Source: Maribacter litopenaei
Lineage (GTDB): Bacteria; Bacteroidota; Bacteroidia; Flavobacteriales; Flavobacteriaceae
DNA length: 64,000 nt
Assembly: GCF_025244665.1 (NCBI RefSeq)
Contig: NZ_CP104205.1
Coordinates: 3,469,001-3,533,000, forward strand
Direction: 5' to 3'
Position numbers and translations under genes: made by a program. Positions 1-64,000 of the stretch are shown in pieces; the stretch's first letter is position 1; each line of letters begins with the position of its first letter. Below the pieces are notes generated by a model. That model searched no databases and was not told where the DNA came from. It saw only the letters and a program-made list of their open reading frames with translations.

Positions 1-37
1 CGGATCAATTTTAAATCTACCTTCGCGCGAAAAATTA

Positions 38-642
38 GTGACCTTACCGCAAAAAGTAACGTTGATAGAACAGTTGTTCCACCAATTGGAACAAGAGACT
101 TCTTCTTTTCAAAATAACACGGGAATTAGGTGTCTTTCCGGCTGCGGACGATGCTGTACCTATCCGGATATTGAAGCCTCTCCCCTAGAGTTTTTACCGT
201 GGGCCTTTCATCTGTTTTTGAACGGTGAGGCCGAAAAGATGTTACAGACCCTTCGAGATCTCAAAACTAGTACCTGTGTTAACTACCAACCACTTTCCGT
301 CGTAGACCAAGGCCATTGTAAGACGTACCGGTATCGCGGCCTTATTTGCAGGTTGTTCGGCTATGGAGCCAACACGGACAAATATGGTAAACTGCGCCTC
401 GCCACCTGTAAAATCATTAAGGAAGGGCAGACAGTAAACTTTACTTCCGCAAACGAAAAAATAGCTCAAGGGTTGCCCGTTCCCGTCTTTACGGAATACT
501 ACATGCAACTCAACCAAATAGACTTCCGTCACGGGAAATATTATCGTACCGGTCAATAAGGCATTACGCTTGGCTCACGGAAGAAGTGTTGCAATACTAT
601 GCCTATAGACCTTTGCCACTTTCGGACAAAGAGTGCGTGTAA
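38..642 (+). CDS. YkgJ-family cysteine-cluster protein (frame broken twice)
   Basis: Likely a YkgJ-type putative zinc/iron-chelating protein. The N-terminal half carries the family cysteine cluster (CLSGCGRCC near residue 32) followed by further Cys residues (CRLF, ATCKI). Translation stops at 559, but the C-terminal part expected for the family (…VPVNKALRLALEEVLQYYAYR…) continues to 642 if two sites reading TCACGG (529-534 and 575-580) are restored to TCTGG. GTG at 38 is taken as the start; the frame is open to the window edge, so the true start could lie a little upstream. Exact substrate is unknown. The family call rests on the Cys pattern and length (about 200 aa after repair). Confidence 0.72.
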
Positions 643-771
643 CCTTTTAGAACACATCTTAAAGCGTATTGGGTCAACCCCAAAAAGGGATTTAAAGTAC
701 CTTGTTGTCATAAGAAAATCGTATTGGAGTCATCATTAGGTCTTCACTATAATCATTAAAAAAACAAGGAA

Positions 772-1237
772 ATGAACATTTATAAAGCAATCAAGGACGA
801 TCACGATCTTCAAAGGGAGCTATGCTCTAAAATTTTAAAAACCTCACGGGGATTCTGAGGAACGAAGGGACATGCGGGAGGAACTGAAAAAGGAACTGGA
901 AGTTCATGAAGTGGCGGAAGAACGTTTCTTTTATTCCCCGTTGATAGATTCTGATAAGATGCAGGAAGACGCACGCCACGGGATGGCGGAACATCACGAA
1001 ATGGATGAACTTATAGAAGAACTGGATGACACGGACATGAGTTCTCCACATTGGTTGGCCACCGCTCAAAAATTGGTCGAAAAAGTAGAGCATCACTTAA
1101 AGGACGAGGAAGAGGACTTCTTTAAAAAGGCAAAGGATATATATTCCAGCGATGAAGCAGAGTCCCTTGCCAAAAGCTATGGTGAAACGGTTGCCGAATA
1201 TAGAAAGGCGTGGCCCGAAGCCATACCGGGAAAATAA
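772..1237 (+). CDS. Hemerythrin HHE-domain protein (one frameshift)
   Basis: Small four-helix HHE cation-binding protein of about 155 aa. It opens with MNIYKAIKDDHDLQRELC and has the family histidine pattern (DDHDLQ, LEVHEVAEERFFY, MAEHHEMDELI, KVEHHLKDEEEDFF) expected to hold a di-iron site. The ATG at 772 is chosen because the first HHE helix lies upstream of the nominal Met at 872. The frames join if TCACGG at 844-849 is read as TCTGG. Such proteins are linked to oxygen, NO or iron stress in the cytoplasm; the precise role here is not shown. A strong hairpin terminator follows. Confidence 0.8.
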
Positions 1238-1266
1238 ATAAAAAATTAGTTGCTGTTTGTATATAA

Positions 1267-1302
1267 AAAACCGCCGGGGATTCTGATCCTTCCGGCGGTT
1301 TT
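1267..1302. terminator. Bidirectional hairpin terminator
   Basis: Long inverted repeat: AAAACCGCCGG (1267-1277) pairs with CCGGCGGTTTT (1292-1302), and an inner GGAT/ATCC extends the stem. A-tract and T-tract flank it, so it can end transcription of the hemerythrin gene on + and of the converging lipoprotein gene on -. Confidence 0.85.
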
Positions 1303-1323
1303 AAACAACTAACCAACCTAAAA

Positions 1324-2239
1324 CTATTTTGTTCGCTTCCTAACTACATCCATGGTAGGATTGGAAGTCTTTGTTCTTTTCTTGGTGGCGGCACTTTTAC
1401 CCGACTTTAAATACTGCTGATAGCCCCTGCCCTTAAACTCGTAAATGGTACCGCTATCTCGGGTGATATAATTCAATGGTCGCATCATTGATAACATACA
1501 GTTCAAAATAATCGTCCCCAAAGAAGTCGTAATCCAACGTCAAAGTCTTCAGGGAGGCATCATTGGCAACATCATACACCTGATAATTACCTTCAAAATC
1601 CCATTGTAAACTTCCTAGGGAAGTACCGGGAGCATCCACTGAGGAACGAAACATAGTTGGCAAAAACTGAAGAAAGTTCTCATCATCAAAATCATTCAAA
1701 TCGCCCTCCACACTGGTATAGGTTTTCTCCCATGCATCATACTCCTGAATAAAGTAATTGATGTTGTCATAAAATACCTGGTCGTAATCAAAATTGCGTA
1801 TTTGATACCCTTTTAGTAAGTACGAAGTGTCCGTACTTGGATTATATAGTTCCAGCGTACTATTGTTGATAGCATACACTTCCAATAACCATACCCCATC
1901 CAAATCATGATCTATTTCAACCACACCCCTGTAGGTATCATAGAAACCTACATCGATTCCAAATCCATTACCGGTCTTCCCTATACCTACAATATTATTA
2001 TTGGCGAAGAAGGTACCATTGTCAAAGCTAACGGTAAACGCCCTTTGCAAAAAAGGAACCTCACCATTTCCACGTGTTTGGTTGATATCTATATACCAAA
2101 GGTCATAAACTTGTAAAACCTGATCCGTATTAAAAGCAGATTCTTCAATATACGCATCCTCAATAATAACATCCGCATAACAGGAAACCAACATGGTTGC
2201 CAAAAGTGCATATCCAAAAAGTAGTTTTACATTTTTCAT
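1324..2239 (-). CDS. Hypothetical secreted lipoprotein (one frameshift)
   Basis: Begins MKNVKLLFGYALLATMLVSC, a lipoprotein signal peptide with lipobox-like LVSC, so it is probably anchored in the outer membrane or periplasm. The mature part is acidic and aromatic-rich with two similar segments (…LYVINDATIELYHP… and …VYAINNSTLELYNPS…), suggesting a duplicated beta-rich domain in which each half ends in a similar strand pattern. The frame breaks at 1457-1462 (TCTCGG for TCTGG); after repair the protein continues DSGTIYEFKGRGYQQYLK and ends in a basic tail. No known family recognised. It converges on the terminator at 1267-1302. Confidence 0.6.
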
Positions 2240-2363
2240 ACCCCTAAGTTTTTAATTTTGATTATAATAAAACAAGCACCGTGCCAAAACAGCAAACACT
2301 TTGATTTACAGGATATAAACTCCTGCTTATTATTTGGTAATTTAGCAGCATCAAATTCTTGAT

Positions 2364-3365
2364 ATGAAGAAAGACGTAAAATTTGCGGTACTTGGTGGAG
2401 GAAGTTGGGCAACGGCCATAGTGAAAATGTTGACAGCGAATCAGGACATGGTGGGATGGTATATGCGGAACACCGATGCCATTGGCTACTTAAAAATTCA
2501 AAAACACAACCCTAATTATCTTACCTCAGTAGAGTTTAAGACAGAACAGCTGTTTCTAACCGATAATATCAATGAAATTGTTGCCTATGCCGATGTCCTT
2601 ATTTTTGCCATCCCATCTGCATTTTTAATGGAAGAATTGGAGAAATTGACCATCTCATTAGAGGACAAGATTATTTTTTCCGCCATAAAAGGTATTGTGC
2701 CGGAAACAGGAAAAATTGTAGGGGAGCATTTTCACGACTCCTATGACATTCCCTTTGAAAATATTGGGGTAATTACCGGGCCTTGCCATGCCGAGGAAGT
2801 GGCGATGGAACGACTTTCGTATTTGACCATTGCCTGTGCCGATCCCAAAAAGGCAAAATTGATAGCCGAAAACCTATCCAGCAACTTTATAAAAACCAAA
2901 ATAACAAAGGATATTATCGGTACCGAGTATGCTGCCATGCTTAAAAACATCTATGCCATCGCCGCGGGTATCGCACATGGTTTGGGTTATGGTGATAATT
3001 TTCAAAGTGTTTTGATGAGTAATGCGATTCGAGAGATGAAGCGCTATACCAAACGAATCCACAAAATAGACCGGAACATCAACCAATCAGCCTATTTAGG
3101 AGATCTACTGGTCACCGGATATTCCACATTTAGTAGAAACCGAATGTTCGGGAATATGATCGGGAAAGGATATACCGTTAAAAGTGCCCAAATGGAGATG
3201 AGTATGGTCGCAGAGGGCTATTACGCCACCAAAAGTGCCTACCAAATCAAGAACGATTTTAAAAAGAAGGTAAAAACGCCTATTATAGATGCTGTATACG
3301 AAGTACTCTACGAGAACAAAAATGCCAAAAAAGTCTTTGCGGCATTAACGGAGAAGTTGGATTAA
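2364..3365 (+). CDS. gpsA: NAD(P)-dependent glycerol-3-phosphate dehydrogenase
   Basis: Reduces dihydroxyacetone phosphate to sn-glycerol-3-phosphate for phospholipid synthesis in the cytoplasm. The 333-residue protein has the N-terminal Rossmann motif VLGGGSWATAIVKML, the family segment ITGPCHAEEVAMERL, the conserved TEYAAMLKNIYAIAAGIAHG with the catalytic lysine, and the C-terminal YLGDLLVTGYSTFSRNRMFG. Length and both domains are complete; the gene contains no frame error. It is transcribed divergently from the lipoprotein at 1324-2239 and lies near glpK-glpD, which handle the same metabolite in the catabolic direction. Confidence 0.95.
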   Translation: MKKDVKFAVLGGGSWATAIVKMLTANQDMVGWYMRNTDAIGYLKIQKHNPNYLTSVEFKTEQLFLTDNINEIVAYADVLIFAIPSAFLMEELEKLTISLEDKIIFSAIKGIVPETGKIVGEHFHDSYDIPFENIGVITGPCHAEEVAMERLSYLTIACADPKKAKLIAENLSSNFIKTKITKDIIGTEYAAMLKNIYAIAAGIAHGLGYGDNFQSVLMSNAIREMKRYTKRIHKIDRNINQSAYLGDLLVTGYSTFSRNRMFGNMIGKGYTVKSAQMEMSMVAEGYYATKSAYQIKNDFKKKVKTPIIDAVYEVLYENKNAKKVFAALTEKLD

Positions 3366-3493
3366 AAACCCTCAAGCTCTTAAAGACAGAATTCCTGACT
3401 ACTACTTTCCAACGGCTATTGGAAGTAATTAATGCCTTGCTTTAAATGAGTGTTTAATTTATTGATAATCAATGTTTTACAACTATTTGGAAG

Positions 3494-4018
3494 CTAGTGT
3501 ACTATTTTTTTTCGAATCTTATCAACTTTGCTGTTCCAAGCAAATCCTGTAGGATTAACTTTCATAGATTTTCCTGTGCTTTTATTTATTTCAAAAGCTG
3601 CAAGGGCAGTTTCTTTGCCAACATTACCAAAAGGGTGAAATGATTTTATGGAATAGTCTTTCTTGCTGGATATATAACATCCTGAGCATATATAGTAGTA
3701 CCCATCAAGAACAATAATATCCTGAATTTTGTAAACCCTTTGATTTGAGTCTGGGTCAATTCTCACACTTTCAGAGGTAATAATTTGGTAATCCCCCTCA
3801 GTAAAATTAGTTGAGCTAGTTTCTATACCATCCTTATTCACTTCGGCCCTTGACTTATACACTAGTCCATTTAATTCGGAGACATCCGAATACTCCATTC
3901 CTATCAGATAGTCAAACTTATCGGTATCAGATATGATTTCCTTTTGTTGCCCGAATCCGTTGAGAGAAAAAAGAGCAAAAACTAGGACAAATCGAAAAAT
4001 AGATTTAGTGGTTTTCAT
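3494..4018 (-). CDS. Hypothetical secreted protein
   Basis: A 174-residue protein with a signal peptide (MKTTKSIFRFVLVFALFSL… followed by NGFGQQ, a typical Bacteroidota signal-peptidase I site). The mature chain is beta-rich with a central YYYICSGCYISS segment and a basic end. No domain family recognised. It sits alone on the minus strand downstream of glpD with 42 bp between them, so it may be carried on the glpK-glpD transcript. Confidence 0.6.
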   Translation of the reverse strand: MKTTKSIFRFVLVFALFSLNGFGQQKEIISDTDKFDYLIGMEYSDVSELNGLVYKSRAEVNKDGIETSSTNFTEGDYQIITSESVRIDPDSNQRVYKIQDIIVLDGYYYICSGCYISSKKDYSIKSFHPFGNVGKETALAAFEINKSTGKSMKVNPTGFAWNSKVDKIRKKIVH

Positions 4019-4060
4019 TTTAACTTTTTTAAATAAGTTACAACAATAATAAAGTAAAAA

Positions 4061-5728: not shown

Positions 5729-5810
5729 ACGATTCTTTCTTATATAAAGATAAAAAGAAGGCAAGGAGAAAGGATCCCTTGAAACTTAATTTAATATTTA
5801 AATAACAGAC

Positions 5811-7293
<1,483 letters not shown>

Positions 7294-7336
7294 AAAATCA
7301 ATTGAATTTAAATGCAGCCAAGACTGCATGTTTCTA

Positions 7337-11133: not shown

Positions 11134-12688
11134 ATGTCAGAAATTGCAAAAGAATTTGGAATAGTTGAGGCCTTAGCTGCTTTAGGCATAAAAGAAACAA
11201 ATAATGGTTCATCTACTGGTCCGGAAAGCTTTGCTTCGGGCCACCTGATTGAATCCTATTCTCCAGTGGATGGCTCTTTGATAAGCAAAGTGAAATCAAC
11301 CTCAAGGGAGGACTACGAAAAGGTAATGGAAAAGGCTATGGAAGCCTTTAAAATATGGAGAGCAAAGCCAGCACCCCAACGAGGTGAAATTATACGTCAA
11401 TTCGGAAACAGACTTCGGGAATTAAAGGAACCTCTTGGAAAGCTGGTTTCCTATGAAATGGGTAAAAGTTATCAAGAAGGTCGCGGGGAAGTTCAGGAAA
11501 TGATCGATATCTGTGATTTTGCCGTTGGATTATCAAGACAGCTTCACGGTCTTACCATGCACTCAGAAAGACCGGGCCATAGAATGTATGAACAATATCA
11601 TTCCTTGGGAGTGGTGGGAATCATATCAGCATTTAATTTTCCTGTAGCCGTGTGGTCTTGGAATACAGCTTTGGCATGGGTCTGTGGTGACGTTTGTGTA
11701 TGGAAACCTTCTGAAAAGACACCTCTATGCGGTATAGCCTGCCAAAATATTGCTGCTTCGGTGTTCAAGGAAAATAATTTACCGAGAGGGTATTTCATGT
11801 CTTATCAACGGAGATTATCAAGTAGGGGAATTTATGACTCAGGATAATAGAATTCCGTTGGTGTCCGCAACTGGATCTATTCGAATGGGTAAAATAGTGG
11901 CCCAAGCGGTCGCGGCCGGACTTGGTAAATCCTTATTGGAATTAGGAGGTAACAATGCAATTATTGTCACACCCGACGCCGACATAAAAATGACTGTTAT
12001 TGGTGCTGTTTTTGGTGCTGTGGGTACCGCAGGACAAAGATGTACTTCTACAAGAAGACTGATCATTCACGAGTCTATATATGACAAAGTAAAAGATGCC
12101 CTAGTATCTGCATACCAACAATTGAAAATTGGCAATCCTCTTGATCAGAACAATCATGTAGGCCCCCTTATCGATACCGATGCCGTAACGCTCTATTCAA
12201 AAGCTTTGGAGAAAGTTGTGGAAGAAGGTGGTGAACTCATTGTAGAAGGTGGCGTCCTAGAAGGAAAGGGCTATGAAAGTGGTTGTTACGTAAAACCTGC
12301 CATTGCAGAAGCTAAGAACGATTTTGAGATTGTGCAGCATGAGACATTTGCTCCGGTGCTTTATTTACTCAAGTATTCCGGTGATGTTGAGAATGCTATA
12401 GCATTGCAGAATGGTGTCGTACAAGGACTATCCTCTGCCATAATGACCAATAATCTTAGGGAAGCGGAAAAATTCCTTTCCGCAGCGGGAAGTGATTGTG
12501 GTATTGCCAATGTTAATATTGGAACTTCCGGGGCTGAAATAGGGGGTGCCTTTGGCGGGGAGAAAGAAACAGGCGGTGGCCGTGAAAGTGGTTCGGATGC
12601 ATGGAAAATTTATATGAGAAGACAGACAAATACAATTAACTATACTACCGAATTACCTCTTGCCCAAGGAATAAGATTTGATTTATAA
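11134..12688 (+). CDS. ALDH7-type aldehyde dehydrogenase (one frameshift)
   Basis: NAD-dependent aldehyde dehydrogenase of the ALDH7 (alpha-aminoadipic semialdehyde dehydrogenase, antiquitin) type, about 517 aa. Evidence: the N-terminal LAALGI segment, GVVGIISAFNFPVAVWSWN, WKPSEKTPLCGIACQNI, the oxyanion/NAD segment LLELGGNNAIIV, the catalytic cysteine in GTAGQRCTSTRR, and HETFAPVLYLLKY. The frame breaks at 11782-11787 (CCGAGA for CCAGA) and resumes as GISCLINGDYQVGEF. Family members oxidise aminoadipate semialdehyde in lysine breakdown; the kynurenine-pathway neighbour leaves a role in that pathway possible but unproven. Confidence 0.88.
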
Positions 12689-14854: not shown

Positions 14855-15849
14855 TATAAAGCTCCATTGGCCTCTACCCATTTAAAATGGTATTGATCCT
14901 GGGGAAACTTCATACGCTCTGCAATACGTTCCAATCGGCAGGCAAACTTATAAGATAGTCCCTTGCCTTTTCGGCATCCTCATTTAATGACCGAATCGAT
15001 TCCAAATCCCAAAAAGCGTTTAACTTTCTCAAAATATCTACATAATCCTGGGCCGTGTAAACTCCCAATCGCTGAGCACAATTTGAAAAATTCTCAAATG
15101 CGGTACCAATGGTTCCACCGGATTCCCTCAAAAAATGTGCGGGCATCACTATTTTTTTCTTCATCATATCGGCAAATGCCAACATCATCCCGGAAGGTCC
15201 TCTCCAAATATATTTTTTACAAATTCCCTATAAGCAAGGTGGTGCCGCATTTCATCTCCAGCGATAATGGTACACATTTTACCTAAAAGTGCATTGCCTT
15301 TCTTCTTGGCCATCTGCCCTACGCGCTTATGTGATATATTGGTTGCCAACTCCTGAAAGGAAGTATAGACAAAGTTCTTGTAGGGATCCCTATCTGTTCC
15401 TATGTCAAAACCATCTGTCAGCAAATGTTGTGTGGTTATTTCTATTTCCCTCATATTTACCCTTCCGGATAGGTAGAGGTACTTATTTAAAACATCACCA
15501 TGTCTATTTTCTTCTCCTGTCCATGCCCTCACCCATTTGGCCCAGCCATTGGTCTTAAAATCTCCGTGTTGATCGATTCCAACAACATCCATCAACCATG
15601 ATTCATAGGTTGGTAAGGCCTCCTCAGTGATGGTATCCGCAACCATGGTCACCCAAAAATCATATCCCAACTCCTTGGATTCCTCGCGAATTTCCTTCAC
15701 CTTCTCCAAAAATCCATCTTCCTCCGAATCCGCAAAAAATCACTTGGCTGCCAAATTTTTTCAATGGGTACAAGAAAGGATTCCATAAAACCAGCGACTT
15801 TAGGTTCCAATGCCTGCATTACTTCCAATCGTATATTTTTTTCCGCCAT
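14855..15849 (-). CDS. Acyl-[acyl-carrier-protein] desaturase (three frame errors)
   Basis: Soluble di-iron acyl-ACP desaturase of about 330 aa, introducing a double bond into ACP-bound fatty acids. Di-iron ligands are seen in WTGEENRHGDVLNKYL and IIAGDEMRHHLAYREFV (two EExxH/DExRH helices), with FVYTSFQELATNISHKR between them. The start MAEKNIRLEVMQALEP is at 15849. Frame errors: 15729-15732 (TCCG where TCTGG restores FLPDSEEDGF), about 15189-15193 (in DLPxMM), and 14935-14938 (TCGG for TCTGG), after which the protein ends …FKWVEANGAL at 14855. Related to plant stearoyl-ACP desaturases and bacterial DesA1/2 types. Confidence 0.88.
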
Positions 15850-34590: not shown

Positions 34591-36184
34591 ATGTTCAAAC
34601 ATTTAAAAAGCGATCTTCCAGCAAGTATCGTAGTATTCTTTGTAGCCCTGCCTCTTTGTTTAGGTATTGCTTTAGCCAGTGGTGCACCTTTGTTTTCTGG
34701 TTTAATTGCAGGTATTATAGGAGGTATTGTTGTAGGTGCCCTTAGCGGTTCCAATATTGGTGTAAGTAGTCCCGCGGCAGGTCTTGCCGCCATCGTTCTT
34801 ACAGCCATTGGTGCCCTTGGTGGATATCAAAATTTTTTGGTGGCTGTTGTACTAGGCGGTGTTATTCAACTAGTTTTTGGAATCCTGAAAGCCGGTATCA
34901 TTGGGTATTATTTTCCATCTTCCGTCATCAAGGGAATGTTAACCGGCATTGGTATCATCATTATATTAAAACAAATTCCCCATTTTTTTGGCTATGATTC
35001 CGATCCTGAAGGTGACTTTGCTTTTTTTCAAGTAGATGGTGAAAATACTTTCAGCGAAATATTGAATACAGTGAATAATATCAGTCCAGGAGCAACTTTA
35101 ATCGCAATAATAGGATTGGCCATATTGATTCTTTGGGACAGCGTATTGACCAAGAAGTCAAAAATTTTTCAGCTCATTCAGGAATCGGTAGTGGCAGTTG
35201 CTGTTGGAATAATTTATTATCTGTCAACAGCCGACCATGAAGTGCTAGGTATCTCAAAAGAACATTTGGTAAGTGTTCCGGTACCGGAGAACTTAACTTC
35301 CTTTTTTGGACAATTTAGTTTTCCTAACTTTTCAGCGATTACCAATCCACAAATTTGGGTTACCGGTTTTACCATAGCTTTAGTGGCAAGTTTGGAGACC
35401 TTATTATGTGTCGAGGCCACAGATAAATTAGACCCCTATAAAAATGTGACCCCCACAAACAGGGAATTATTGGCTCAAGGTACAGGCAATATCATCTCAG
35501 GTCTGATCGGTGGATTACCTATAACACAGGTAATCGTCCGAAGTTCAGCCAATATTCAATCTGGCGGTAGAACCAAACTTTCCGCTATAATTCATGGTTT
35601 TTTTCTTTTGTTCTCCGTAATTCTTATTCCTACAGTTCTAAATATGATTCCCTTATCGGTTCTGGCGGCCATTTTATTTATTGTGGGCTACAAGTTGGCA
35701 AAACCTGCATTGTTCAAAAAAATGTATGACTTGGGCTGGAAACAATCCATTCCATTCTTTGTAACGGTAATCGGAATTATTTTCACAGACCTACTTATTG
35801 GGATAGGACTTGGATTGTGTGTGGGAATATTTGTTATCCTATTAAAAAGCTATCAGAATTCCCATTTCTTGCGAAAAGAGAAAAATACTGATGGTAAGGA
35901 TATTATTAAAATGACACTGGCGGAAGAGGTTACTTTTTTTAACAAAGGTGCTATTCTCAAAGAATTAGAGAGCATTCCAGTAAAACACGTACTTAGAAAT
36001 TGATAAATTAAACACCCGTTACTTGGATTATGATATCATTGAAATCCTTGAGGATTTTAGGTACAAAGCCAAGGAACGTAATATAGATATTAAATTATTA
36101 TCAAAAAGAGGGATTGTCGAGAACCCACAAAGTTTTATTGAGTTTTTTAGACCCGATTCAAAATCATCATCGAGTGTTACTTAA
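34591..36184 (+). CDS. SulP-family anion transporter (one frameshift)
   Basis: About 530 aa SulP permease with a C-terminal STAS domain. The membrane part shows the family opening ASIVVFFVALPLCLGIALAS, GIIGGIVVGALSGSNIGVSSP, and NRELLAQGTGNIISGLIGGLP. The frame ends early at 36003; reading the CTTAGA at 35992-35997 as a damaged site one base shorter restores the STAS segment EIDKLNTRYLDYDIIEILED and a stop at 36184. Bacteroidota members of this branch often accompany carbonic anhydrase and are suspected bicarbonate transporters; two beta-carbonic anhydrases follow directly here. Confidence 0.85.
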
Positions 36185-37642: not shown

Positions 37643-38662
37643 ATGATTGATAAAATAAAGGAGCAGATTGCCGAAGTATCCTCTTTTACTGCTGACAATA
37701 TGGAAGCTGTAGAAGCTTTCAGAATTAAATATTTAGGTAAAAAAGGGATATTAAATGACTTCTTTGCAGCGTTTAAAAATGTTCCCAACGAGCAGAAAAA
37801 AGAATTCGGCCGAGACTATCAACCAGTTGAAACAGGCTGCGACCGAGAAAGTTGATCAGTTGAAACAAACTTTGGAAAGCAATGCATCCGAAGAAAAATT
37901 GTTCGGTGATCTTACCGGACCTGGAAATCCGACTGAGTTAGGGGCCCGACATCCAATATCCATAGTCAAGAATAAAATTATAGATATATTTTCCGGAATA
38001 GGGTTCAACGTTTCAGAAGGGCCTGAAATTGAGGATGATTGGCATAATTTTACCGCTCTGAACTTGCCGGAATATCACCCAGCTCGTGATATGCAGGATA
38101 CTTTTTTCGTGCAAACCAATCCGGACATCCTACTAAGAACGCACACTTCATCGGTCCAGGTGCGGTACATGGAAAACAACAAGCCACCTATTAGGACAAT
38201 TTCTCCAGGACGGGTTTACAGGAACGAAGCAATTTCGGCAAGATCCCACTGCTTCTTTCACCAAGTAGAAGGCTTATATATTGACAAGGATGTATCCTTT
38301 GCCGATTTAAAACAGACTCTACAATATTTTACCACGGAACTATTTGGAAAATCAAAAATAAGGCTTCGTCCTTCCTATTTTCCCTTTACCGAGCCCAGTG
38401 CAGAAGTCGATGTTTATTGGGGATTGGAAACTGAAACCGATTATAAAATGACCAAGGGTACTGGTTGGTTGGAAATCATGGGATGTGGTATGGTGAATCC
38501 AAACGTTCTTAAGAATTGCCAAATAGATCCGAAGTATATTCAGGTTTTGCATTTGGAATGGGGATAGATAGGATTGCTCTATTATTACACCAAATTAGTG
38601 ACATTCGTTTGTTGAGCGAGAACGATCTACGCTTTTTAGAGCAATTTAAAAGCGCACTGTAG
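37643..38662 (+). CDS. pheS: Phenylalanyl-tRNA synthetase alpha subunit (two frame errors)
   Basis: Catalytic alpha subunit, about 340 aa, charging tRNA-Phe. N-terminal helical part ([19 protein letters not shown]), [20 protein letters not shown], class-II motif 2 region [20 protein letters not shown], and motif 3 [19 protein letters not shown] with the usual ending [12 protein letters not shown]. Frame errors at 37810-37815 (CCGAGA for CCAGA, FGQTINQLKQ expected) and 38529-38532 (CCGA for [17 protein letters not shown] expected). As pheS is essential, these breaks are strong evidence that the frame errors are not biological. Confidence 0.95.
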
Positions 38663-47188: not shown

Positions 47189-48441
47189 TTAATCTATTTT
47201 TTTAAAGACAACGCATGCGTTATGCCCTCCAAAACCAAAGGTATTACTCATGGCGACCCTCACATCCCTCTTCCGGGCTTTGTTGAGTGTCAGGTTTAGA
47301 CTAGGATCTATATTTTCGTCTACCGTTGTGTGGTTTATAGTTGGTGGAACTATTCCATGCTCCATGGCCAAAATGGAGGCAATGGCTTCAATAGCGCCTG
47401 CAGCACCTAACAAATGTCCTGTCATGGACTTGGTGGAGTTTATGTTGATATTCTTTGCATGAATTCCCAAACACCTCTGAAATGGCCTTTAATTCTGCAA
47501 CATCTCCTAAAGGGGTCGACGTACCGTGTGTATTAATGGCATCAACTTCTTCAATATTCATCCCTGCATCACGTAAGCAGTTCTCCATTACCTTTACCAC
47601 TCCTATTCCATCCGGATGAGGGGCGGTCATATGATAGGCATCACTAGAGAGTCCTCCTCCCGCAACCTCGGCATAAATTTTTGCTCCTCTTGCCTTGGCA
47701 TGCTCATATTCCTCAAGTATCAAAGCTCCTGCTCCTTCACCAAGGACAAAGCCGTCCCTAGTGGCATCAAAAGGTCTAGAAGCAGTTTCTCGGACTATCG
47801 TTACGGGTAGAAAGTGCGTGCATCGCACCAAATCCTCCCATACCAGCAATCGTGACCGCAGCTTCACTTCCTCCGGAAACTATTACATCACAATGTCCCA
47901 AACGAATGTAGTTAAGTGCATCTATCAAGGCGTTAGCTGAGGAGGCACAGGCAGATACCGTTGTATAATTAGGCCCCATGAAACCATGTTTAATGGAGAT
48001 ATGACCAGGTGCTATGTCCGCAATCATTTTAGGAATAAAGAAGGGGTTGAACCTTGGAGTACCATCACCTTGGGCAAAATTCATTACCTCATTTTGAAAG
48101 GTTTCCAAACCACCGATTCCAGCTCCCCAAATCACCCCCGTCCTAAACTTGTCCAGTTTGTCCAAGTCCAGTTTGGAATCTTTAATGGCTTCATCAGAGG
48201 ATATTAGTGCATATTGTGCAAACCTATCCAGTTTACGGCCTTCTTTGCGGTCAAAGTAATCCTCTGTATTGTAGTTTTTTAGTTCGCAGGCGAATTTTAC
48301 CTTAAATTTTTCAGTGTCATAATATGTTATGGGTGCAGATCCACTTTTCCCATTTACAAGACCGTTCCAATACTCCTCAATATTGTTACCTATCGGGGTA
48401 AGTGCCCCCAACCCGGTAACCACAACTCGCTTTAATTGCAT
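47189..48441 (-). CDS. fabF: 3-oxoacyl-ACP synthase II (two frame errors)
   Basis: About 416 aa condensing enzyme that elongates acyl-ACP. Start [18 protein letters not shown], active Cys in [20 protein letters not shown], His in [30 protein letters not shown] with the second catalytic His, and the ending [16 protein letters not shown]. Frame errors at 47788-47793 (TCTCGG for [17 protein letters not shown] expected) and near 47460-47470 (one extra base in a GGG run; [13 protein letters not shown]). Part of acpP-fabF-rnc. Confidence 0.95.
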
Positions 48442-49041: not shown

Positions 49042-49612
49042 TTGAAATCTAAACAAATTGTACTTTTTGCATCTGGATCTGGATCCAATGTTGAAAACAT
49101 TGTAAACTATTTTAGTGAAAACTCCTCTATTGGCATAAAGGCTGTTTTGACCAATAAACGGGATGCCCAAGTTTTGGATCGCTGTGACCGACTTAATATC
49201 AATGCACTTTATTTCAATAAGCATGCTTTTCTTAAAAGCGATTGTGTTTTAACTATCCTCAAAAGTTTGAATCCGGATTTAATAGTTTTAGCGGGGTTTC
49301 TTTGGAGGATCCTTAGAAAATATTATTAACGATTTCCCTAATAAAATCATTAACATTCATCCAGCATTGCTACCTAAGTATGGGGGTAAAGGAATGTATG
49401 GTATGAACGTACACAATGCCGTGAAGGAAAATGGGGAAACGGAAACAGGCATCACAATCCACTATGTGAATGCCAATTATGACGAAGGAGCGATAATTAA
49501 ACAAGTGAAGACCCCGGTTTTTGAAGGGGACACACCCGAGAATATCGCAGGTATAGTCCACCAACTGGAGTATGAACATTTTCCAAAAGTGATTGAAGAA
49601 TTATTGTCCTGA
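49042..49612 (+). CDS. purN: Phosphoribosylglycinamide formyltransferase (one frameshift)
   Basis: About 190 aa enzyme of purine synthesis transferring formyl from 10-formyl-THF to GAR. TTG start with KQIVLFASGSGSNVENIVNYF; catalytic IINIHPALLPKYGGKGMYGM and TGITIHYVNANYDEGAII. The frame is lost at 49312-49317 (CTTAGA where CCAGA gives WRIPENIINDFPNK). Stop and the rnhA ATG overlap (TGATG). Divergent from acpP, a conserved flavobacterial layout. Confidence 0.93.
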
Positions 49613-50247
49613 TGGGAAAAAAGAACAAATTCTATGTGGTTTGGAAAGGCAAAAGGCCTGGAATCTATGAGACATGGGAGGATTGTAAGGCGGCAATAAG
49701 TGGTGCCAAAGGAGCGGAATACAAATCTTTTGGAACATTCGATCTTGCTAAAAAAGCTTACAATGGCAACTATTCGGATTTTAAAGGCAAAAAGAAAGGA
49801 CAGTCCGACCTATCCCCCGAAGATCTTCTTAAAATAGGGCAACCAAACTACCATTCCATTGCGGTGGACGCTGCATCCAGTGGAAATCCCGGAATGATGG
49901 AATACCAAGGTGTGGACACCAAAACCAAAAAGAAGCTATTTAAACAAGGCCCCTTTGAACAGGGACCAATAATATTGGGGAGTTTTTGGCCATAGTACAT
50001 GGATTGGCATTTCTTAAGGAACGTAATAGTGACCGTATCATCTATACAGATTCCGAGAACGGCGATGAGTTGGGTACGAAAGAAAAAGTGTAATACTAAT
50101 CTTACGGAAAACCTAAAGAACAAAGCATTGTTCGATCTTATCCATAGGGCAGAAAACTGGCTCAAATCAAATTCCTATAAAACCCCCATCGTAAAGTGGG
50201 AAACCAAAGCCTGGGGTGAAATTCCTGCGGATTTCGGAAGAAAGTGA
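49612..50247 (+). CDS. rnhA: Ribonuclease H with viroplasmin-like N-domain (two frame errors)
   Basis: About 210 aa. N-terminal RNase H1 hybrid-binding (viroplasmin) domain: NKFYVVWKGKRPGIYETWED…YKSFGTFDLAKKAY. The C-terminal RNase H domain has the catalytic series SIAVDAASSGNPG, NIGEFLAIVHGLAFL and IIYTDSRTAMSWVRKKKCN. Frame errors at 49966-49969 (base lost before AATATTGGGG; possibly CCAGAT reading CCAAT) and 50053-50058 (CCGAGA for CCAGA, restoring YTDSRTAMSW). Cleaves RNA in RNA:DNA hybrids. Confidence 0.92.
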
Positions 50248-50271: not shown

Positions 50272-51718
50272 ATGCCTCAGAAATTCCTTTTTCTATCATC
50301 CCTATTTTTCCTTGTTGCCCATGTTCAAGACATCAGAAGTCAAGGAAATTGGGTCTGTACCTTTTTTTATTCGGAAACAGAAGTTCGCTATGAAAATGTC
50401 TCAGAAGAGCAAAAAAATCAATTGAAAGAATTCCTCTTACAAAACGGTCTTCAAGATGAGTTTCCATATTCCATTTCAATTAATGGTTATAACCATATTA
50501 CGGCTTTTGCTGGACTACGAAATAATGGGAAGCCGTTTAGAAACATAATATTCCCAAGTTCATTTTTAGATTCCTTGTCCAAAAAAAGAATTCAAGAAAA
50601 TCGGCTATTTGAGTTTTTTCACGCGTATGGGCATCATTTAAATAAGCACAAGGTAATTGATAGTTTATCCGAGAAGAAGAAATGAACTGCAAGCTGATAG
50701 ATTTGCCGCATTTCAACTAAACCGATTGGGGATTGTTAGAGACACGAACGATCTCACAGCTTTAATACCAGACTTGAATAGAAAAGAAGAAAGATTTGGT
50801 TACCCATCTAGAATAAAGGCCTTTAGAAAAGGTTGGGAACTTTACGAACAGGAGCGGAAGCATTATTTAAAGAACATCAACTTGTCGTTATATAGTTACG
50901 ATAGAAAAAAAGAGGATTCCCTATTCAAATTCGCAAGAGAGGAACAACAGGTGAATCCGGAGGAAAGTGCTTTGGCATTTTCCAATACCTACAGGTATAG
51001 TGCTGGTAAAAACCTGAAAGCTTTACATAATGCCTTCATAATCTATTCGCAACTAAAGGATTTCGAACTTGCCTTATTACATGGGAATGAAATACTGAAG
51101 ATTGGATCCGGTTTTCTTAGGGAGAAAGAACAAATGGATTTCTTTTTAGAGATGAGCAAAATATATTTTCAGAAGAACCATTGTAGTAAGGCCTTTGACT
51201 TTTTTACTCTTGCTACAATGATTGATGGGGAAGACATAGCTATGTTAGAGTATCAGACTCAATTATCTAGGCTATGCTCCAGTTTCGAGGAAAATACGGC
51301 CTTATTACAGAAGAGAATCATTGTTGAAGGTGCGAACCCGGAGTTATATTATCAACTATCAAAACAATATTTTGACCACCTAGATTACCTAGAAGCAATT
51401 AGATATTTAAAAAGAACGATGAAACTAAGTCCTGAACATATGAATTCCAGATTATTACTTTCAAAAATCTATTTTCAAGAATGGAAGGACATGATTCATA
51501 TTCTTAAAAATCAGCGGAATTATATTAGTAAGTTTGATTTCGATAAAATCATAACAACAAAAAATGACCTTTTTAAAAAGGCCGAAGATGTTTTAAAAGA
51601 GGGTCTAAAATTGAACCGAAACAATAAGTTACTTAGGGTAGAGTTAAAAAACATCAGAAAAGTCGAAAGAGCTGTATCCATTTATTGGCCACAATCGGGA
51701 AATTATATAATAGAATGA
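50272..51718 (+). CDS. M48-like protein with altered HExxH and TPR tail (one frameshift)
   Basis: About 482 residues. Signal peptide (KFLFLSSLFFLVAHVQ). A peptidase-like region follows with FFHAYGHHLNKHKVID and NELQADRFAAFQLNRLG: layout of an M48/Zn-peptidase (HExGH plus downstream ExxAD), but the expected HELGHH reads HAYGHH, so the catalytic Glu is absent. The C-terminal two thirds is helical with TPR-like units (ELYYQLSKQYFDHLDYLEAI). CCGAGA at 50669-50674 must be CCAGA to join the two frames (SLSRRRNELQAD). Either an inactive relative or a base error in the motif. Confidence 0.65.
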
Positions 51719-52801: not shown

Positions 52802-54699
52802 ATGAGTGACGCTATTAAACATGAGTGTGGCATCTCGGTCATCAGGCTGCTCAAGCCGCTTGAATATTACAAGGAAAAATATGGATCGGCTTTTTATGGG
52901 GTAAACAAGATGTACCTCATGATGGAAAAGCAACATAATCGAGGACAAGATGGTGCTGGTTTTGCCAGTATTAAACTGGATGTGGAAGCGGGTCAAAGAT
53001 ACATGAGCCGGGTACGTTCTTGTGAGCAACAGCCAATACAGGATATATTTGCACAAATCAATCAGCGTATAAATAATGAGCTTAAAGAACATCCGGAATA
53101 CGAGAATGATGTGGCCCTTCAGAAAAAGAACATCCCCTATATAGGAGAGCTTTTATTGGGCCATGTTCGATATGGAACCTTTGGAAAAAACAGTATAGAA
53201 AGTGTACATCCTTTCTTGAGGCAAAATAATTGGATGCATCGAAATCTAATCGTTGCTGGAAATTTTAACCTGACCAACGTACACGAATTGTTTGACAATT
53301 TAGTGCAGCTGGGCCAACATCCAAAAGAAATGGCGGATACGGTGACCGTTATGGAAAAAATAGGTCACTTTTTGGACGATGCCGTGGCCAAGCTGTATAA
53401 ACAGATCAAGAAGGAAGGGTATAGCAAGCAGGAGGCTTCCCCTATTATAGCTGAACGCTTAAAAGTCTCCAAAATATTAAAAAGGGCCGCCAAGAATTTT
53501 GACGGAGGATTTGCCATGGCCGGACTTCTAGGACATGGTGATGCATTTGTGTTAAGAGATCCCGCAGGTATCAGACCGGCATATTACTATAAGGATGATG
53601 AAATAGTAGTGGTAGCTTCTGAAAGACCCGCTATTCAGACCGTTTTTAATGTTCCATTTGAGGAAGTAATTGAATTGGAGCCCGGAAATGCCATAATTGT
53701 CAAAAAGAATGGCACCACTAAAATTAAGCAAATATTGGAGCCTAGGGAACGTAAAGCATGTTCCTTTGAGCGTATCTACTTCTCAAGGGGAAGTGACAAG
53801 GAAATTTACCAAGAACGAAAAATGTTGGGAAAACTAGTTTTTCCTCAAATTCTTAAAGCTATAGACAATGACCTTAAGAATACCGTATTCTCCTATATTC
53901 CAAATACGGCAGAAACTTCTTTCTTTGGTATGGTAAAAGAGGCCCGGAATTACCTCAACAAGAAAAAAGAAGAGCAGATTCTTGCCATAGGTGCGAATAT
54001 AACCAGTGAAGAACTACATGAAATTTTAGAGGTAAGACCCGAATTGAAAAAGTTGCCATTAAGGATGCCAAACTTAGAACTTTTATTACTCAAGATGATA
54101 GTCGTGATGATCTTGTGGCCCATGTGTACGACATATCCTATGGCTCGGTGAAGAAAGGGGATAATCTGGTTATTATTGATGATAGTATTGTTAGGGGTAC
54201 TACCTTAAAGAAAAGTATTTTGAGGATACTTGATCGGCTTTCCCCAAAAAAGATAATTGTGGTTTCTTCTGCCCCACAGATACGATATCCTGACTGTTAT
54301 GGAATCGACATGGCGAAGCTTGAAGATTTTATTGCTTTTAGGGCCGCACTGGCACTACATGAGGAGAACAACTCCATGCATATAATAAAAGAGGTCTATA
54401 AAAAATGTATTGAGCAAGTGAGGTCTAAGGATAAGGACATCATAAACTATGTTAAGGAAATATACGCCCCTTTCAGTGCAGACCAAATTTCCCACAAAAT
54501 AGGGCAGCTATTAAGTCCAAGTGATATTAAGGCCGAGGTCCAAATAATCTACCAAGGCATTGCAAACCTTCATGAGGCATGTCCAAAAAATTTAGGGGAT
54601 TGGTACTTTACCGGAAATTATCCAACACCTGGTGGCAATAGAGTGGTTAACAGGGCATTTATTAATTTTTACGAGGGAAAAAACGAAAGGGCCTACTAA
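52802..54699 (+). CDS. purF: Amidophosphoribosyltransferase-like protein (one frameshift)
   Basis: About 633 aa, first committed step of purine synthesis. N-terminal Ntn-hydrolase glutaminase with the nucleophile Cys after a short propeptide (KHECGISVIRLL), QHNRGQDGAGFASIKL, GHVRYGTFGKNSIESVHPF; phosphoribosyltransferase part with VIIDDSIVRGTTLKKS. Longer than typical PurF (about 500 aa) by inserts. The frame is restored at 54039-54042 (CCGA for CCAGA; VRPRIEKVAIKDAK expected). May be a second, flavobacterial PurF-like enzyme. Confidence 0.85.
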
Positions 54700-55346: not shown

Positions 55347-55956
55347 CTATTTATTCGCCGAATACAATTTTGACACCTCTTCCCAATTGATAATGTTAAA
55401 AAAAGCATTTATATAATCAGGTCGTTTATTTTGATAATTTAAATAGTAGGCATGCTCCCAAACATCCAATCCTAAAATGGGATGTCCTCCACATCCAACC
55501 CCGGGCATAATTGGGGTGTCTTGGTTAGGAGTAGAGCAGATTTCCAATTTACCTCCCTTATGCACGCACAACCAAGCCCATCCAGATCCAAATCTAGAAC
55601 CTGCGGCATCACTGAATTTTTCCTTAAAACTATCGAATGAACCAAAAGCGTCTTCAATAGCTTTGGCTAAATCCCCGGAAGGTGCTCCTCCTCCATCCGG
55701 GGAAAGTATAGTCCGAGAAAAGAGAGTGATTATAAAAACCTCCTCCATTGTTACGGACTGCCATATTGTTCATATCCAAGCCCGACAAAATATCTTCGAT
55801 TGATTTTCCATCTAGATCGGTTCCTTCAATCGCCGCGTTCAATTTTGAAGTATATCCGTTATGATGTTTTGTATGATGTATTTCCATTGTCCTAGCATCA
55901 ATATGTGGTTCTAAGGCCTCATATGAATAGGGCAAATTTGGTAACTGAAAAGCCAT
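55347..55956 (-). CDS. sodA: Superoxide dismutase, Fe/Mn type (one frameshift)
   Basis: About 203 aa enzyme converting superoxide to peroxide. Metal ligands in [27 protein letters not shown], and the C-terminal [32 protein letters not shown] is typical. Frame break at 55713-55718 (CCGAGA for [18 protein letters not shown] expected). An intact CCAGA occurs at 55582 in the same gene. Converges with the small RNA cassette, whose last terminator is 80 bp away. Confidence 0.93.
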
Positions 55957-59000: not shown

Positions 59001-59169
59001 CCTAAAGGAAGATGCCGTCATTATCATAGACTACAAAACAGGTAAAAAAAGTCCCAAATACAAGGAGCAGCTGGAATCCTACGCAAATGCATATGAAGAA
59101 ATGGGATTCAAAGTAGAAAATAAAATCATTGCTTATATTAACAAACACATAATTGTAGAATATATTTAA
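56077..59169 (+). CDS. UvrD/AddA-type helicase-nuclease (several frame errors)
   Basis: About 1,030 aa. Superfamily 1 helicase: Walker A YNASAGSGKTYALSKAYLKI, ITFTNKAVNEMKFRILDSL (motif Ia), HYFIDEFQDTSEMQWDNL (Walker B), ILVVTIHKSKGLEFPVVIFP (motif V), NLLYVALTRAIHSLYII (VI). The C-terminal nuclease has IIIDYKTGKKSPKYKEQLES. Frame errors at 56484-56489, about 57332 (likely TCTGG), and about 57411 (cause unclear). GTG start. With the AddB-like gene at 61895 it would make a RecBCD/AddAB-type double-strand break repair enzyme. Confidence 0.85.
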
Positions 59170-59171
59170 AA

Positions 59172-60364: not shown

Positions 60365-60411
60365 ATGCGCATTTTATGCTATTAAATGAGTTAAAAAAAC
60401 AAGAAATTGAT

Positions 60412-60442
60412 TTTGTTAATAATATTTAACAACTTACATTTG
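60412..60442 (+). promoter_or_regulatory. ompA promoter, consensus Bacteroidota type
   Basis: TTTG (60412-60415), exactly 19 bp, TACATTTG (60435-60442): a perfect TTTG-N19-TAnnTTTG pair, 35 bp before the ATG. The most convincing promoter in the window, matching the high expression expected of a major porin. Confidence 0.8.
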
Positions 60443-60477
60443 CAGCTAATAAACACTTAAAACTTAAAATTTTGAAC

Positions 60478-61823
60478 ATGAAACATCTTAGCAAATTATT
60501 GGTTGTTGTCCTACTTGTTGTAGGTTTTAACAACATACAAGCGCAAGACGAGAATAATCCTTGGCAAGTGCAGTTCGGTGCTAACGCTATCGACGTATAT
60601 CCTACCGGGGATGTAAGTTCTTTTGGTAATGAATTCTTTAACGTAAACGACCACTGGAACATCCTTCCTTCTATTTCTTATGTAGGAATATCCAAAAGTG
60701 TTGGCGGTGGCTTTTCCATTGGAGCTAGAGGTTCCTTAAATAAAATAAGCAAATTAGGCGATGTTAGTGTTGATGACTTGTCTCACTATGCTATAGATGG
60801 TACAATAAAATATAACCTAACGAAAGAAACTGTAATCCAGCCATTTATTGAAGTTGGTGGTGGTTATACTTGGGTTGATGAAATTGGTGCAGGTACTGTA
60901 AATGGTGGATTAGGACTTAACTTTTGGTTCACTGAAAACCTTGGTCTTACATTACAATCTACTTACAAGCATGCTTTCGAAGATTATGGTGTTAAACATT
61001 TCCAACACTTAGCTGGTATCTCTGTTAAGTTTGGAGGTACTGATACTGACGGTGATGGTATTTATGACAAAGATGATGCTTGTCCGTGAAGTTGCTGGTC
61101 TAGAAGCGTTTAATGGTTGTCCGAGACTCTGACGGTGATGGTATAGAAGACAGTAAAGATAGCTGTCCAAACGAAGCTGGTTCTAAAGAAATGAATGGAT
61201 GTCCTGATTCTGACGGTGACGGTGTTGCCGATAAGGATGATGCTTGTCCAAATGAAGCTGGTCTAGCTGCTTTGGCTGGTTGTCCGAGATGCTGATAGCG
61301 ACGGAGTTGCTGATAAAGACGATGAATGTCCAAACGAAGCCGGTCCATCTGAAAACAATGGATGCCCATGGCCTGATACTGATGGAGATGGCGTTCTTGA
61401 CAAAGACGATCAGTGTCCGAGATGTAGCTGGTACTGTAGCTAATGCTGGATGTCCGTGAAGTTACTGAAGAAGTACAGAAGCAATTGAACGACTATGCTA
61501 GAACTATCTTGTTCGACACTGGTAAGTCTTCTATCAAAGCTGAATCTACTTCTGTAATGGTTGATATCATCCAAATCTTGAATGAGTACCCAACTGCTAA
61601 ATTTACAGTAGAAGGACATACTGATAGTGTAGGTAGTGCCAAATTGAACCAAAGTCTTTCTGAGTCAAGAGCTCTTTCTGTAAAAGAATTCTTAGTAGAC
61701 AAAGGTATCGAAGAGTTCAGGTTGTCAGCTGTTGGATATGGTGAGGACAAGCCAATCGCTACTAACAACACAAGAGCTGGTAGAGCACAAAACAGAAGGG
61801 TAGAAATTAACTTAGTAAAATAA
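60478..61823 (+). CDS. ompA: OmpA-family porin with TSP3 repeats (five frame errors)
   Basis: About 447 aa outer-membrane protein. Signal peptide [17 protein letters not shown], an eight-strand beta-barrel region, thrombospondin type-3 repeats with Ca-binding DxDGDGxxD motifs (61039-61440), and a C-terminal OmpA peptidoglycan-binding domain ([46 protein letters not shown]). The frame breaks at 61084, 61121, 61284, 61417 and 61454; in each the codon pair CCA-GA (Pro-Asp/Glu) reads CCGAGA or CCGTGA. Pro-Asp pairs coded CCT-GA in the same repeats are intact. Confidence 0.9.
61039..61440 (+). repeat. Thrombospondin type-3 repeat region of ompA
   Basis: About five repeats of the pattern [19 protein letters not shown] with short spacers ending GCP. 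The nucleotide repeats are close to identical (GACGGTGATGG, GATGATGCTTGTCC), which also makes local misassembly possible. Confidence 0.85.
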
Positions 61824-61859
61824 GTTACCTTAAATAAACATTAAGTGTTTTTATACTTG

Positions 61860-61888
61860 AAAAGCTCCGCATTCTGCGGAGCTTTTTT
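61860..61888 (+). terminator. ompA terminator
   Basis: AAAGCTCCGCA (61861-61871), loop TTC, TGCGGAGCTTT (61875-61885) and T tail. Confidence 0.88.
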
Positions 61889-61894
61889 ATTTTT

Positions 61895-64000
61895 ATGAAC
61901 ATGGTTAGTTTCCTAGACGAAGTAATTGATGAATTATGCAGCCAAGAGGTTAAGCTAGCTGAATGTATCTACATACTTCCCAGCAAAAGAGCTGGAACCT
62001 TCCTTAAAAAAATTATTTCCAAAAAACTAGGAAAGACCATACTCTCCCCTGATGTATATAGCATTGAAGAATTTGTTGAAAAAATTGCAGATTTATCCTA
62101 TGCGACACAAACACAACAACTTTTCGAACTATACAAAGCTTATCTAGAATCAGGTACTTACGAGAAGGAATCCTTTGAATCTTTTTTGAACTGGGGACAA
62201 ACACTACTTCAAGATATTAATGAAATAGACAGGTATTTAATCGACACTTCTTCGTTGTTTTCCGGATTGGCTGCAATACAAGAAGTAAACCATTGGTCAC
62301 TAAGGGAAAACCAAACGTCCCTAATGAAAAACTACCTACGCTTTTGGAACCAATTAGACGATATTTACCACACCTTCAATGCCAATCTTATTAGCCAGCA
62401 TATCGGCCATCAAGGTCTAGTGTATAGAAAAGCTTCCGAAGTGGTAATACAGTATGAAAATCAAGAAAAAAGACCGCATATCTTTTTGGGGTTTAATGCA
62501 TTGAATGCCGCAGAAAGCAAAATAATACAAATTCTACTGGGCAATCAACAATCTAAGATTTTTGGGACCTGGACACCTACTTTCTAAATGACAACATACA
62601 TGATGCCGGATTGTTCATAAGTAAACACAAGAAATCCTGGCCTTTCCTTAAATCCAATCCTCTAAAAGGAATTAGTGATAATTATAGGGAGAAGAAAAAT
62701 ATAAGGGTCGTCGGCATACCTAAAAGTATTGCACAAACCAAATATGTAGGTGACCTTATAAATCAAATCCAAGAAACGAATCCAAAACAATTAGAAGGTA
62801 CGGCCGTCATACTAGGAGACGAATCACTCCTTAATCCTTTGTTGAACAGTATCCCTAAAACTATTGCTTCCGTTAATATTACCATGGGGCAGAAATTGGA
62901 TTTGACCGGTTTAGCCACATTTTTCTCCAATTTTATAGACCTGCACCTAGCAGTAACCCGAAAAGGATGGTTTTATACTGATTTTACAGCATTTATAAAC
63001 AACCCTTATTCCATTGCATTACTTGGAATAAGTGATATCAAAGCCGAAAAATTAATATCTCATATACATCAAAAAAATTGGATATATATCTCGAATAGAG
63101 AGCTTCGTCAATACTCAGATTCGAATCCGAGAGGTTTTTGATCAGCTGTTTTTCGAATACAAAACCCCAGCACGATTTGTTGAAAAGTGCTCATCTCTGA
63201 TTCAAACTTTAAAATTGATATTCGAAAAAAACAATGAATACCTCGCCCTCGAGCAATTATTTAAAATACATACCCTATTCAATCAAATTGGGGAATTGGT
63301 ACAGGAATATGAATATCTAAATTCCTTAAGGAGTCTTAAAAGCCTTTTCCGCCAATTAATTTCGTCAGAGACGTTGGATTTCCAAGGTGACCCGTTAGAG
63401 GGTCTTCAAATTATGGGAATGTTGGAAAGCAGAAACCTAGATTTTGAAACAGTAATTCTGACTTCGGTAAATGAAGGTATCCTCCCATCCGGAAAATCAA
63501 ACAACTCATTCATCCCCTTCGATTTAAAAAATGAATTCGGATTACCCACCTATAAGGAAAAAGACGCCGTGTACACTTATCACTTTTATCGATTGCTGCA
63601 GCGGGCCAAAAATATTTACTTGATATATAATACGGAACCGGATGTTCTCGGAAGGAGGTGAAAAAAGTAGGCTTATCACCCAAATATTAACTGATGAAAA
63701 CAGGGACGATGTAGTTGAGAATATTGCTACCCCTAACATTCAGGCAATAACTCATTCCCAAAAAATTATCCATAAAAGTAAGGGGCTCATTGACCTTTTG
63801 AACAACTATGCCGTCAACGGATTTTCCCCTAGCTCACTAAGCAACTACATTAGAAATCCGATAGATTTTTATAAACAGAACCTATTGGGCATACAATATA
63901 CTGAAGAGGTTGAGGAAAATATTGCAGCCAACACCATGGGGACTATTATACATGACAGCCTCGAGGAACTTTACACTCCATTTATTGATAAGGAAATTGA
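61895..64000 (+). CDS. AddB-like nuclease subunit, partial (three frame errors)
   Basis: Runs off the window end at about 700 residues. Opens with IYILPSKRAGTFLKKIISKK and TILSPDVYSIEEFVEKIA, as in AddB-type inactive-helicase/nuclease proteins, continues with MGMLESRNLDFETVILTSVNEG and VYTYHFYRLLQRAKNIYLIY, and reaches GFSPSSLSNYIRNPIDFYKQ, the entry to the C-terminal PD-(D/E)XK nuclease. Frame errors at 62562-62565, 63127-63132 and 63646-63651, all explained by CCAGA/TCTGG repair. Partner of the addA-like gene, separated from it by kbl and ompA. Confidence 0.85.

Follow-up and report, generated by a model that had tools for sequence, protein, structure and literature searches.

Frame breaks at the pentamer CCAGA in a Maribacter litopenaei assembly as probable long-read consensus errors, and a candidate C5-cytosine methylase for the motif

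The window analysed here, a stretch of 64,000 nucleotides (nt) from Maribacter litopenaei (contig NZ_CP104205.1, positions 3,469,001 to 3,533,000), is crossed by many frame breaks, most of them at altered copies of the pentamer CCAGA. It is very likely that these breaks are long-read consensus errors at CCAGA sites marked with 5-methylcytosine (m5C) by a type II restriction-modification system whose genes lie outside the window. The candidate pair, a C5-cytosine methylase and an HNH_2 nuclease, lies at 1952085-1954716 on contig C1, and the same erosion of CCAGA recurs in Lacinutrix neustonica, whose genome has a related enzyme.

The breaks were located without recourse to the list in the original prediction, which had been made from the letters of the window and had ascribed nearly all of them to CCAGA. 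Proteins encoded in the syntenic regions of four congeners were matched against the window by dynamic programming in which the frame may shift, and a break was called supported when at least two of the four congeners agreed on it. This frame-aware protein-to-DNA alignment gave 67 break clusters, 61 of them supported and 52 supported by all four congeners; by type, the supported breaks comprise 31 with a net change of +1, 29 of -1, and one of +2. The hexamers most enriched at the +1 breaks include CCGAGA, within 12 nt of 19 of the 31 (0.9% of random places, 0.28 expected), and CCGTGA, within 12 nt of 6 (0.5% of random places, 0.13 expected). At the 30 other breaks, CCGA is the most enriched tetramer (19 of 30; 10.4% of random places, 3.0 expected). 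In all, a simple edited form of CCAGA lies within 12 nt of 44 of the 61 breaks, and among the 17 others 9 have a CCAGA close to the homologous codon of one or more congeners; the earlier estimate of roughly 50 in about 60 breaks is thus a fair one (44-53 of 61). Such a congener CCAGA accompanies 35 of the 61 breaks overall. Taken one congener at a time, it is found at 13-20 of 54-60 breaks, compared to 3.6-4.4% at random.

An edited form alone does not mark a break, since only 19 of the 29 CCGAGA copies and 6 of the 20 CCGTGA copies in the whole window (1-64000, both strands) sit at supported breaks. Intact CCAGA amounts to 21 copies (10 and 11 by strand), rather than the approximately 17 reported earlier, against 57 expected from a third-order Markov model of the window itself. 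In a letter-by-letter check, all 25 edited forms quoted in the original prediction were in place, as were its five quoted intact copies (one at 35560 instead of 35561); 24 of its 25 quoted breaks were recovered, and that at 50669 was not among the supported ones.

Consistent with the breaks in the window, CCAGA is lost across the genome. We sampled 464 kilobases (kb) of M. litopenaei (the window, and 20 kb at intervals of 200 kb) and then a further 680 kb, for a total of 1.14 megabases (Mb), with 80 kb from each of five congeners for comparison. The first sample holds 158 copies of CCAGA (34.1 per 100 kb), the second 216 (31.8), or 32.7 per 100 kb combined, against 156-193 in the congeners; about 80% of the sites are gone from the samples. 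CCGAGA is raised, at 43.5 and 46.2 per 100 kb in the two samples compared to 8.8-22.5. Of all 512 pentamers, CCAGA is the one clear outlier against the five congeners (log2 of -2.29, the next at -0.66, in 464 kb; -2.35 and -0.60 in 1.14 Mb). The genome-wide counts that had been suggested as a check bear out the view that the breaks centre on a single pentamer.

The fate of the lost sites can be followed as a balance around CC_GA. Per 100 kb, CC[A]GA stands at -136, while CC[G]GA stands at +76, CC[]GA at +44, and CC[GA]GA at +30, with smaller gains for CC[T]GA (+20) and CC[GT]GA (+9). The gains do not exactly equal the loss, because background frequencies vary between species. The largest, CC[G]GA, is frame-neutral and was therefore invisible to a reading based on frames. 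Survival depends on the flanks: ACCAGAT is kept at 0.76 of the congener rate (44 versus 50 counts), CCCAGAC at 0.03 (1 versus 25). An example of an intact copy followed by T, the flank where more copies survive, is found at 55582-55586 (+ strand). Frames of at least 300 codons cover 0.38-0.43 of M. litopenaei compared to 0.61-0.65 in the congeners, and its completeness is estimated at 81.7%, with 20 of 24 congeners at 97-100%.

At 74-80% identity, the DNA of the congeners is too diverged for an alignment to give a clean count of insertions and deletions (indels). Against congener G007, CCAGA is kept at 4 of 102 sites and has indels at 17 of 102, making it the top indel pentamer; in a congener control, G013 against G007, it is kept at 26 of 108 with indels at 3 of 108. 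Against G013 and G005, indels fall on 11 of 98 and 10 of 99 sites, and CCAGA shares the top with other pentamers. Ribosomal RNA, intended as a check on conserved CCAGA, was not found in the sampled stretches by pattern searches or by Rfam, the latter applied to seven loci only. The Rfam matches obtained were a tmRNA (L005:14830-15230) and an S16-Flavobacteria leader (L003:3489-3524), which point to a flavobacterial genome.

Several of the breaks fall in recognisable genes, some of them essential, in agreement with the original argument against gene decay. The pheS core (tRNA-synt_2d, 37755-38567, + strand) is interrupted by supported breaks near 37813 and 38533, and the N-terminal domain of a fabF-like beta-ketoacyl synthase (47776-48441, - strand) has one at about 47788, at TCTCGG. 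A frame with an RNase H1 N-terminal domain (Cauli_VI, 49612-50054, + strand) is broken at about 49961, where no CCAGA form is seen and GGACC is nearby, and at 50054, where CCGAGA is found; the C-terminal part of an Fe/Mn superoxide dismutase (55347-55748, - strand) is broken at about 55714. Elsewhere, genes that we read as dnaA and ligA are in pieces. That CCAGA is truly mutating or decaying in the living genome, or that the frames are rescued by programmed frameshifting or RNA-level correction, seems to us extremely improbable: essential genes are broken, some 80% of the sampled sites are affected, the same main edits occur in Lacinutrix, and no point in favor of such an account was found.

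Methylated cytosines alter the nanopore current, and base-callers untrained on a given motif err there reproducibly. Base-calling error at a methylated motif, as first proposed, is the likely cause. On this reading, CCAGA would be marked as m5C in the cell by the C5 methylase at 1952085-1953626, and the modified cytosine would shift the pore signal of what is presumably a nanopore run, leading the base-caller to err at the neighbouring A. Depending on the flanks, this A might be read as G, nothing, GA, T, or GT, with ACCAGAT mostly surviving; errors of this kind would persist into the consensus as frame breaks and artificial gene splits. This type of artefact is already known. The accessible text of one benchmark documents m5C at Dcm sites, CCAGG/CCTGG, as a source of error, with about 70% of the consensus errors of then-current Oxford Nanopore Technologies base-callers falling in these motifs (PMC6591954), and excerpts of two others describe nanopore errors caused by unknown modifications in Listeria (PMC10687267) and a pattern of modification errors with A/G confusion in Klebsiella (PMC11610573). 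CCAGA and the Dcm word CCAGG are identical but for the last base. In the available portions of the open-access literature searched, no link between CCAGA and nanopore errors was found.

The earlier analysis predicted a CCAGA-specific methyltransferase in this genome, possibly of type III or IIG. A good candidate is indeed encoded, outside the window, but it is a C5 enzyme. The methylase (1952085-1953626; L064:7085-8626) has an N-terminal helix-turn-helix and a full PF00145 match, and an HNH_2 nuclease frame overlaps it (L064:8601-9716). In the other 35 genomes of the genus, it has only partial matches. A search of 83 genomes of the family Neisseriaceae gave two full-length relatives (78% and 74%). 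The 74% relative is in the Neisseriaceae genome G085 (2.19 Mb; 52.6% G+C in the 91 kb sampled), which carries a related C5 and HNH pair in the order hldD (TIGR02197), HNH_2 nuclease, methylase, hldA (rfaE domain I). Compared directly, the candidate methylase and the G085 enzyme are 68% identical. Within a recognition core whose limits we set at residues 313-360, 44 of 48 positions are identical, compared to 96 of 120 in the wider region and 112 of 180 in the catalytic half. HNH_2 is found in all three loci, the nucleases being 64-66% identical to that of M. litopenaei (64% for G085).

This gene order recalls an m5C methylase of Neisseria meningitidis, NEIS0771, which lies between hldA and hldD. 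According to the accessible parts of two papers, NEIS0771 is assigned CCAGA, and MspJI digestion supports its activity (PMC7973814, PMC7046676). Based on this homology, the M. litopenaei pair is a good candidate for a new CCAGA m5C system of the NEIS0771 kind, in which the strain's CCAGA sites would be methylated and the partner nuclease would be active. In G085 itself, CCAGA is mildly depleted (observed/expected 0.73) and edited forms are lacking, a picture that fits neither the artefact nor strong avoidance. Strong depletion is seen in G085 for CCAGG and GGACC, and a lesser one for GACGC, as in real site avoidance.

Somewhat more distant relatives are found on Acinetobacter and Vitreoscilla plasmids, where LlaJI-associated C5 methylases are 62-63% identical to the candidate and have a related recognition region. 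Three of these plasmid loci (L094, L095, and L096) hold near-alike sets of a C5 methylase, an AAA ATPase, and a LlaJI nuclease, one of them with a Vsr gene.

What other enzymes might mark CCAGA? An inventory of the methylases bears on the possibility that the artefact is the same but the mark is N6-methyladenine (m6A), or another mark, made by an enzyme of type III, IIG, or some other kind. It is indeed the A of CCAGA that is altered, and the available text of one paper describes modification errors in which A and G are confused (PMC11610573). However, type III Mod proteins (PF01555) gave no match in M. litopenaei, in a search positive in 11 of 14 control genomes, and one in Lacinutrix, and are hence not shared by the two affected genomes; PF02086 gave none in M. 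litopenaei either. The PF07669 and PF02384 matches are two type I HsdM-like proteins, one TrmN, and, by our reading, one PrmC; no fused IIG methylase-nuclease was found through these two families, in a search that did not take in the MmeI type (PF20473). The type III or IIG part of the original prediction is thus not upheld. Together with the cytosine methylase of the same kind already reported for CCAGA (accessible parts of PMC7973814, PMC7046676), this makes an m6A mark, or another mark from such enzymes, quite improbable. One of the type I HsdM proteins adjoins a type I HsdR. Two type I restriction systems are present (L066 and L067); in L067, what we read as a Fic-like frame lies between the hsdM and hsdS-like frames.

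Four PF00145 matches in M. litopenaei are read as three C5-cytosine methylase genes, one of them in two pieces. Besides the candidate, these include the gene at 3681891-3683777 (contig C1), which 34 of the 36 genomes of the genus, its own included, share at an identity of at least 72%. It lies 127-184 kb from dinB in four genomes and is adjoined by a 205-residue frame. Three of six plasmid relatives of this enzyme are near Sau3AI/MutH or BglII/BstYI nucleases, and GATC is presumably the site of the Sau3AI-like neighbours; perhaps, then, the enzyme at 3681891 is GATC specific. It was the first candidate for the CCAGA enzyme and, given these neighbours, was set aside. The other gene belongs to an EcoO109I-type system (3174127-3176376, contig C1) in which nuclease and C5 methylase are each split in two frames; the methylase, at 3175056, adjoins the EcoO109I nuclease, whose recognition sequence we take to be RGGNCCY.

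A further link between the candidate enzyme and CCAGA comes from its relatives. The candidate and three plasmid relatives were aligned, and named genomes scanned with this alignment gave 302 related stretches, 80 of which were examined as loci; 67 of these were testable (at least 9 kb). One, in the complete genome of Lacinutrix neustonica HL-RS19, combines low CCAGA with a gain of CCGAGA. The enzyme there is 81% identical to the candidate, was not among the matches in the 36 genomes of the window's genus (Lacinutrix is hence taken to be another genus), and is the only PF00145 match of its genome. In 261 kb of Lacinutrix, CCAGA is the most depleted pentamer (observed/expected 0.42), and CCGAGA reaches a density of 50.5 per 100 kb. 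Both genomes have G, deletion, and GA as the top three gains, in the same order, followed by C and T in Lacinutrix and by T in M. litopenaei. Retention by flank is correlated between the two (Spearman 0.72, p 0.0016, 16 contexts). Frames of at least 300 codons cover 0.36 of Lacinutrix, compared to 0.53-0.77 in three comparison genomes.

Lacinutrix also bears on whether a base-caller or polisher is simply weak at CCAGA, irrespective of modification. Flank-dependent errors are what one would expect of a base-caller. Against this, Lacinutrix was reached through the methylase alone and has it as its one PF00145 match, and consensus errors in the benchmark, as far as its accessible text goes, were mainly at Dcm sites and homopolymers (PMC6591954). 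We consider such a plain weakness very unlikely, and less probable than an m6A mark.

Genomes of Algibacter, Winogradskyella, and Tenacibaculum have enzymes 81-82% identical and are not eroded, which is what one would predict if other data went into their assembly or polishing; the name of the Algibacter contig ends in 'pilon'. The remaining non-eroded loci may likewise come from short-read or polished assemblies. These genomes argue in addition against a real loss of sites by selection. M. litopenaei does carry a restriction system, and avoidance of CCAGA under restriction pressure could be imagined, yet genomes with such enzymes keep CCAGA (155 per 100 kb in G053, 179 in G055, and 104 in G054), and avoidance would yield neither CCGAGA nor frame breaks; the chance that it accounts for the pattern is close to nil.

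Several points weigh against a methylated CCAGA and the candidate enzyme as the source of the breaks. Of the 17 breaks without a simple edited form among the 61, 8 also lack a congener CCAGA, and GGACC/GGTCC lies within 12 nt of 4 of the 17, all -1 breaks (about 0.3 expected). Just 1 of the 67 testable loci that hold a related enzyme combines the two signs of erosion, and in a few others CCAGA is low but CCGAGA shows no gain (for example, L167, L122, and L100). The comparison set for Lacinutrix consists of three genomes of other genera with a lower CCGGA background, and Lacinutrix gains CC[C]GA (+23), which M. litopenaei does not clearly do. The likeness in the recognition core is not proof of specificity, because the LlaJI-associated Vitreoscilla relative shares 35 of the 48 positions. 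The motif of NEIS0771 is a REBASE assignment that single-molecule real-time (SMRT) sequencing did not detect, and one paper saw a CCAGR signal that it explained by two enzymes, going by the parts available (PMC7973814, PMC7046676); moreover, G085 is presumed to be N. meningitidis from its size, G+C content, and gene order. As to the methylase at 3681891, the other three of its six plasmid relatives are found with an HNH endonuclease and Vsr, with DndB, and with no nuclease.

The -1 breaks with GGACC/GGTCC and without a CCAGA form are at window positions 15198, 49961, 57325, and 62562. GGACC/GGTCC and CCATC/GATGG are both depleted in M. litopenaei by Markov expectation, as they are in the congeners; for GGACC, observed/expected is 0.47 compared to 0.59-0.73 in the congeners, and its density of 71.1 lies at the low end of what the congeners show (71.2-150). 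The densities of GATC and GGNCC are inside the range of the congeners. Perhaps there is a second, weaker effect at GGACC, for which the EcoO109I-type C5 methylase might be the cause.

Other features of the window may be noted. An aldehyde dehydrogenase (11134-12688, + strand) is found in two overlapping frames, split at the CCGAGA at 11782, that match profile positions 8-186 and 182-460 of 461. Glutamine amidotransferase domains are at 52802-54151. The frames at 60472-61089 and 61443-61823 (60472-61823, + strand), the latter of the OmpA family, would seem to be one gene, with five supported breaks in 370 bp (at about 61089, 61126, 61289, 61422, and 61459). These breaks lie upstream of and into the OmpA-domain frame, and the words at them are alike, which suggests a repeat-rich linker with each repeat holding the pentamer.

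By extrapolation from the sampled densities, there are about 5,300 false sites in M. litopenaei and about 4,300 in L. neustonica. Such sites give the appearance of pseudogenes and probably depress the estimate of completeness. The pattern offers a cheap screen for such genomes, a target (CCAGA) for the training of base-callers, and a specificity that can be tested in a methylase family; here, nothing but assembly errors pointed the way to a specific enzyme and to a second public genome that is affected. Asymmetric sites are usually served by paired methylases, and CCAGA is asymmetric with a single C5 enzyme here. Since reads from both strands should feed into the consensus and about 80% of the sites are still miscalled in it, this one enzyme may modify both strands. 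Tentatively, and with more doubt than confidence, one can envision that a methylated motif and its enzyme can be named from a finished assembly alone (a "fossil methylome"), that a CCAGA m5C system is common to Neisseriaceae and flavobacteria, and that a single C5 enzyme may serve both strands.

How, then, does this case compare with known systems? Like the nanopore methylation errors described in the accessible text of earlier reports (PMC6591954, PMC11610573, PMC10687267), those seen here are systematic and outlast assembly and polishing; unlike them, they fall on another motif, include frequent frame-changing edits, and were read from a finished assembly alone. Like the NEIS0771/M.Nme15193ORF2725P system, compared through the G085 pair at hldA-hldD, the candidate joins a C5 methylase to an adjoining HNH_2 nuclease; unlike the enzyme in G085, the M. 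litopenaei methylase has an extra N-terminal helix-turn-helix. The LlaJI-associated systems differ in their partners, an AAA ATPase and a nuclease of the LlaJI family. The Sau3AI-like (GATC) and EcoO109I-type (RGGNCCY) systems of M. litopenaei also have C5 methylases, but their neighbours point to other sites.

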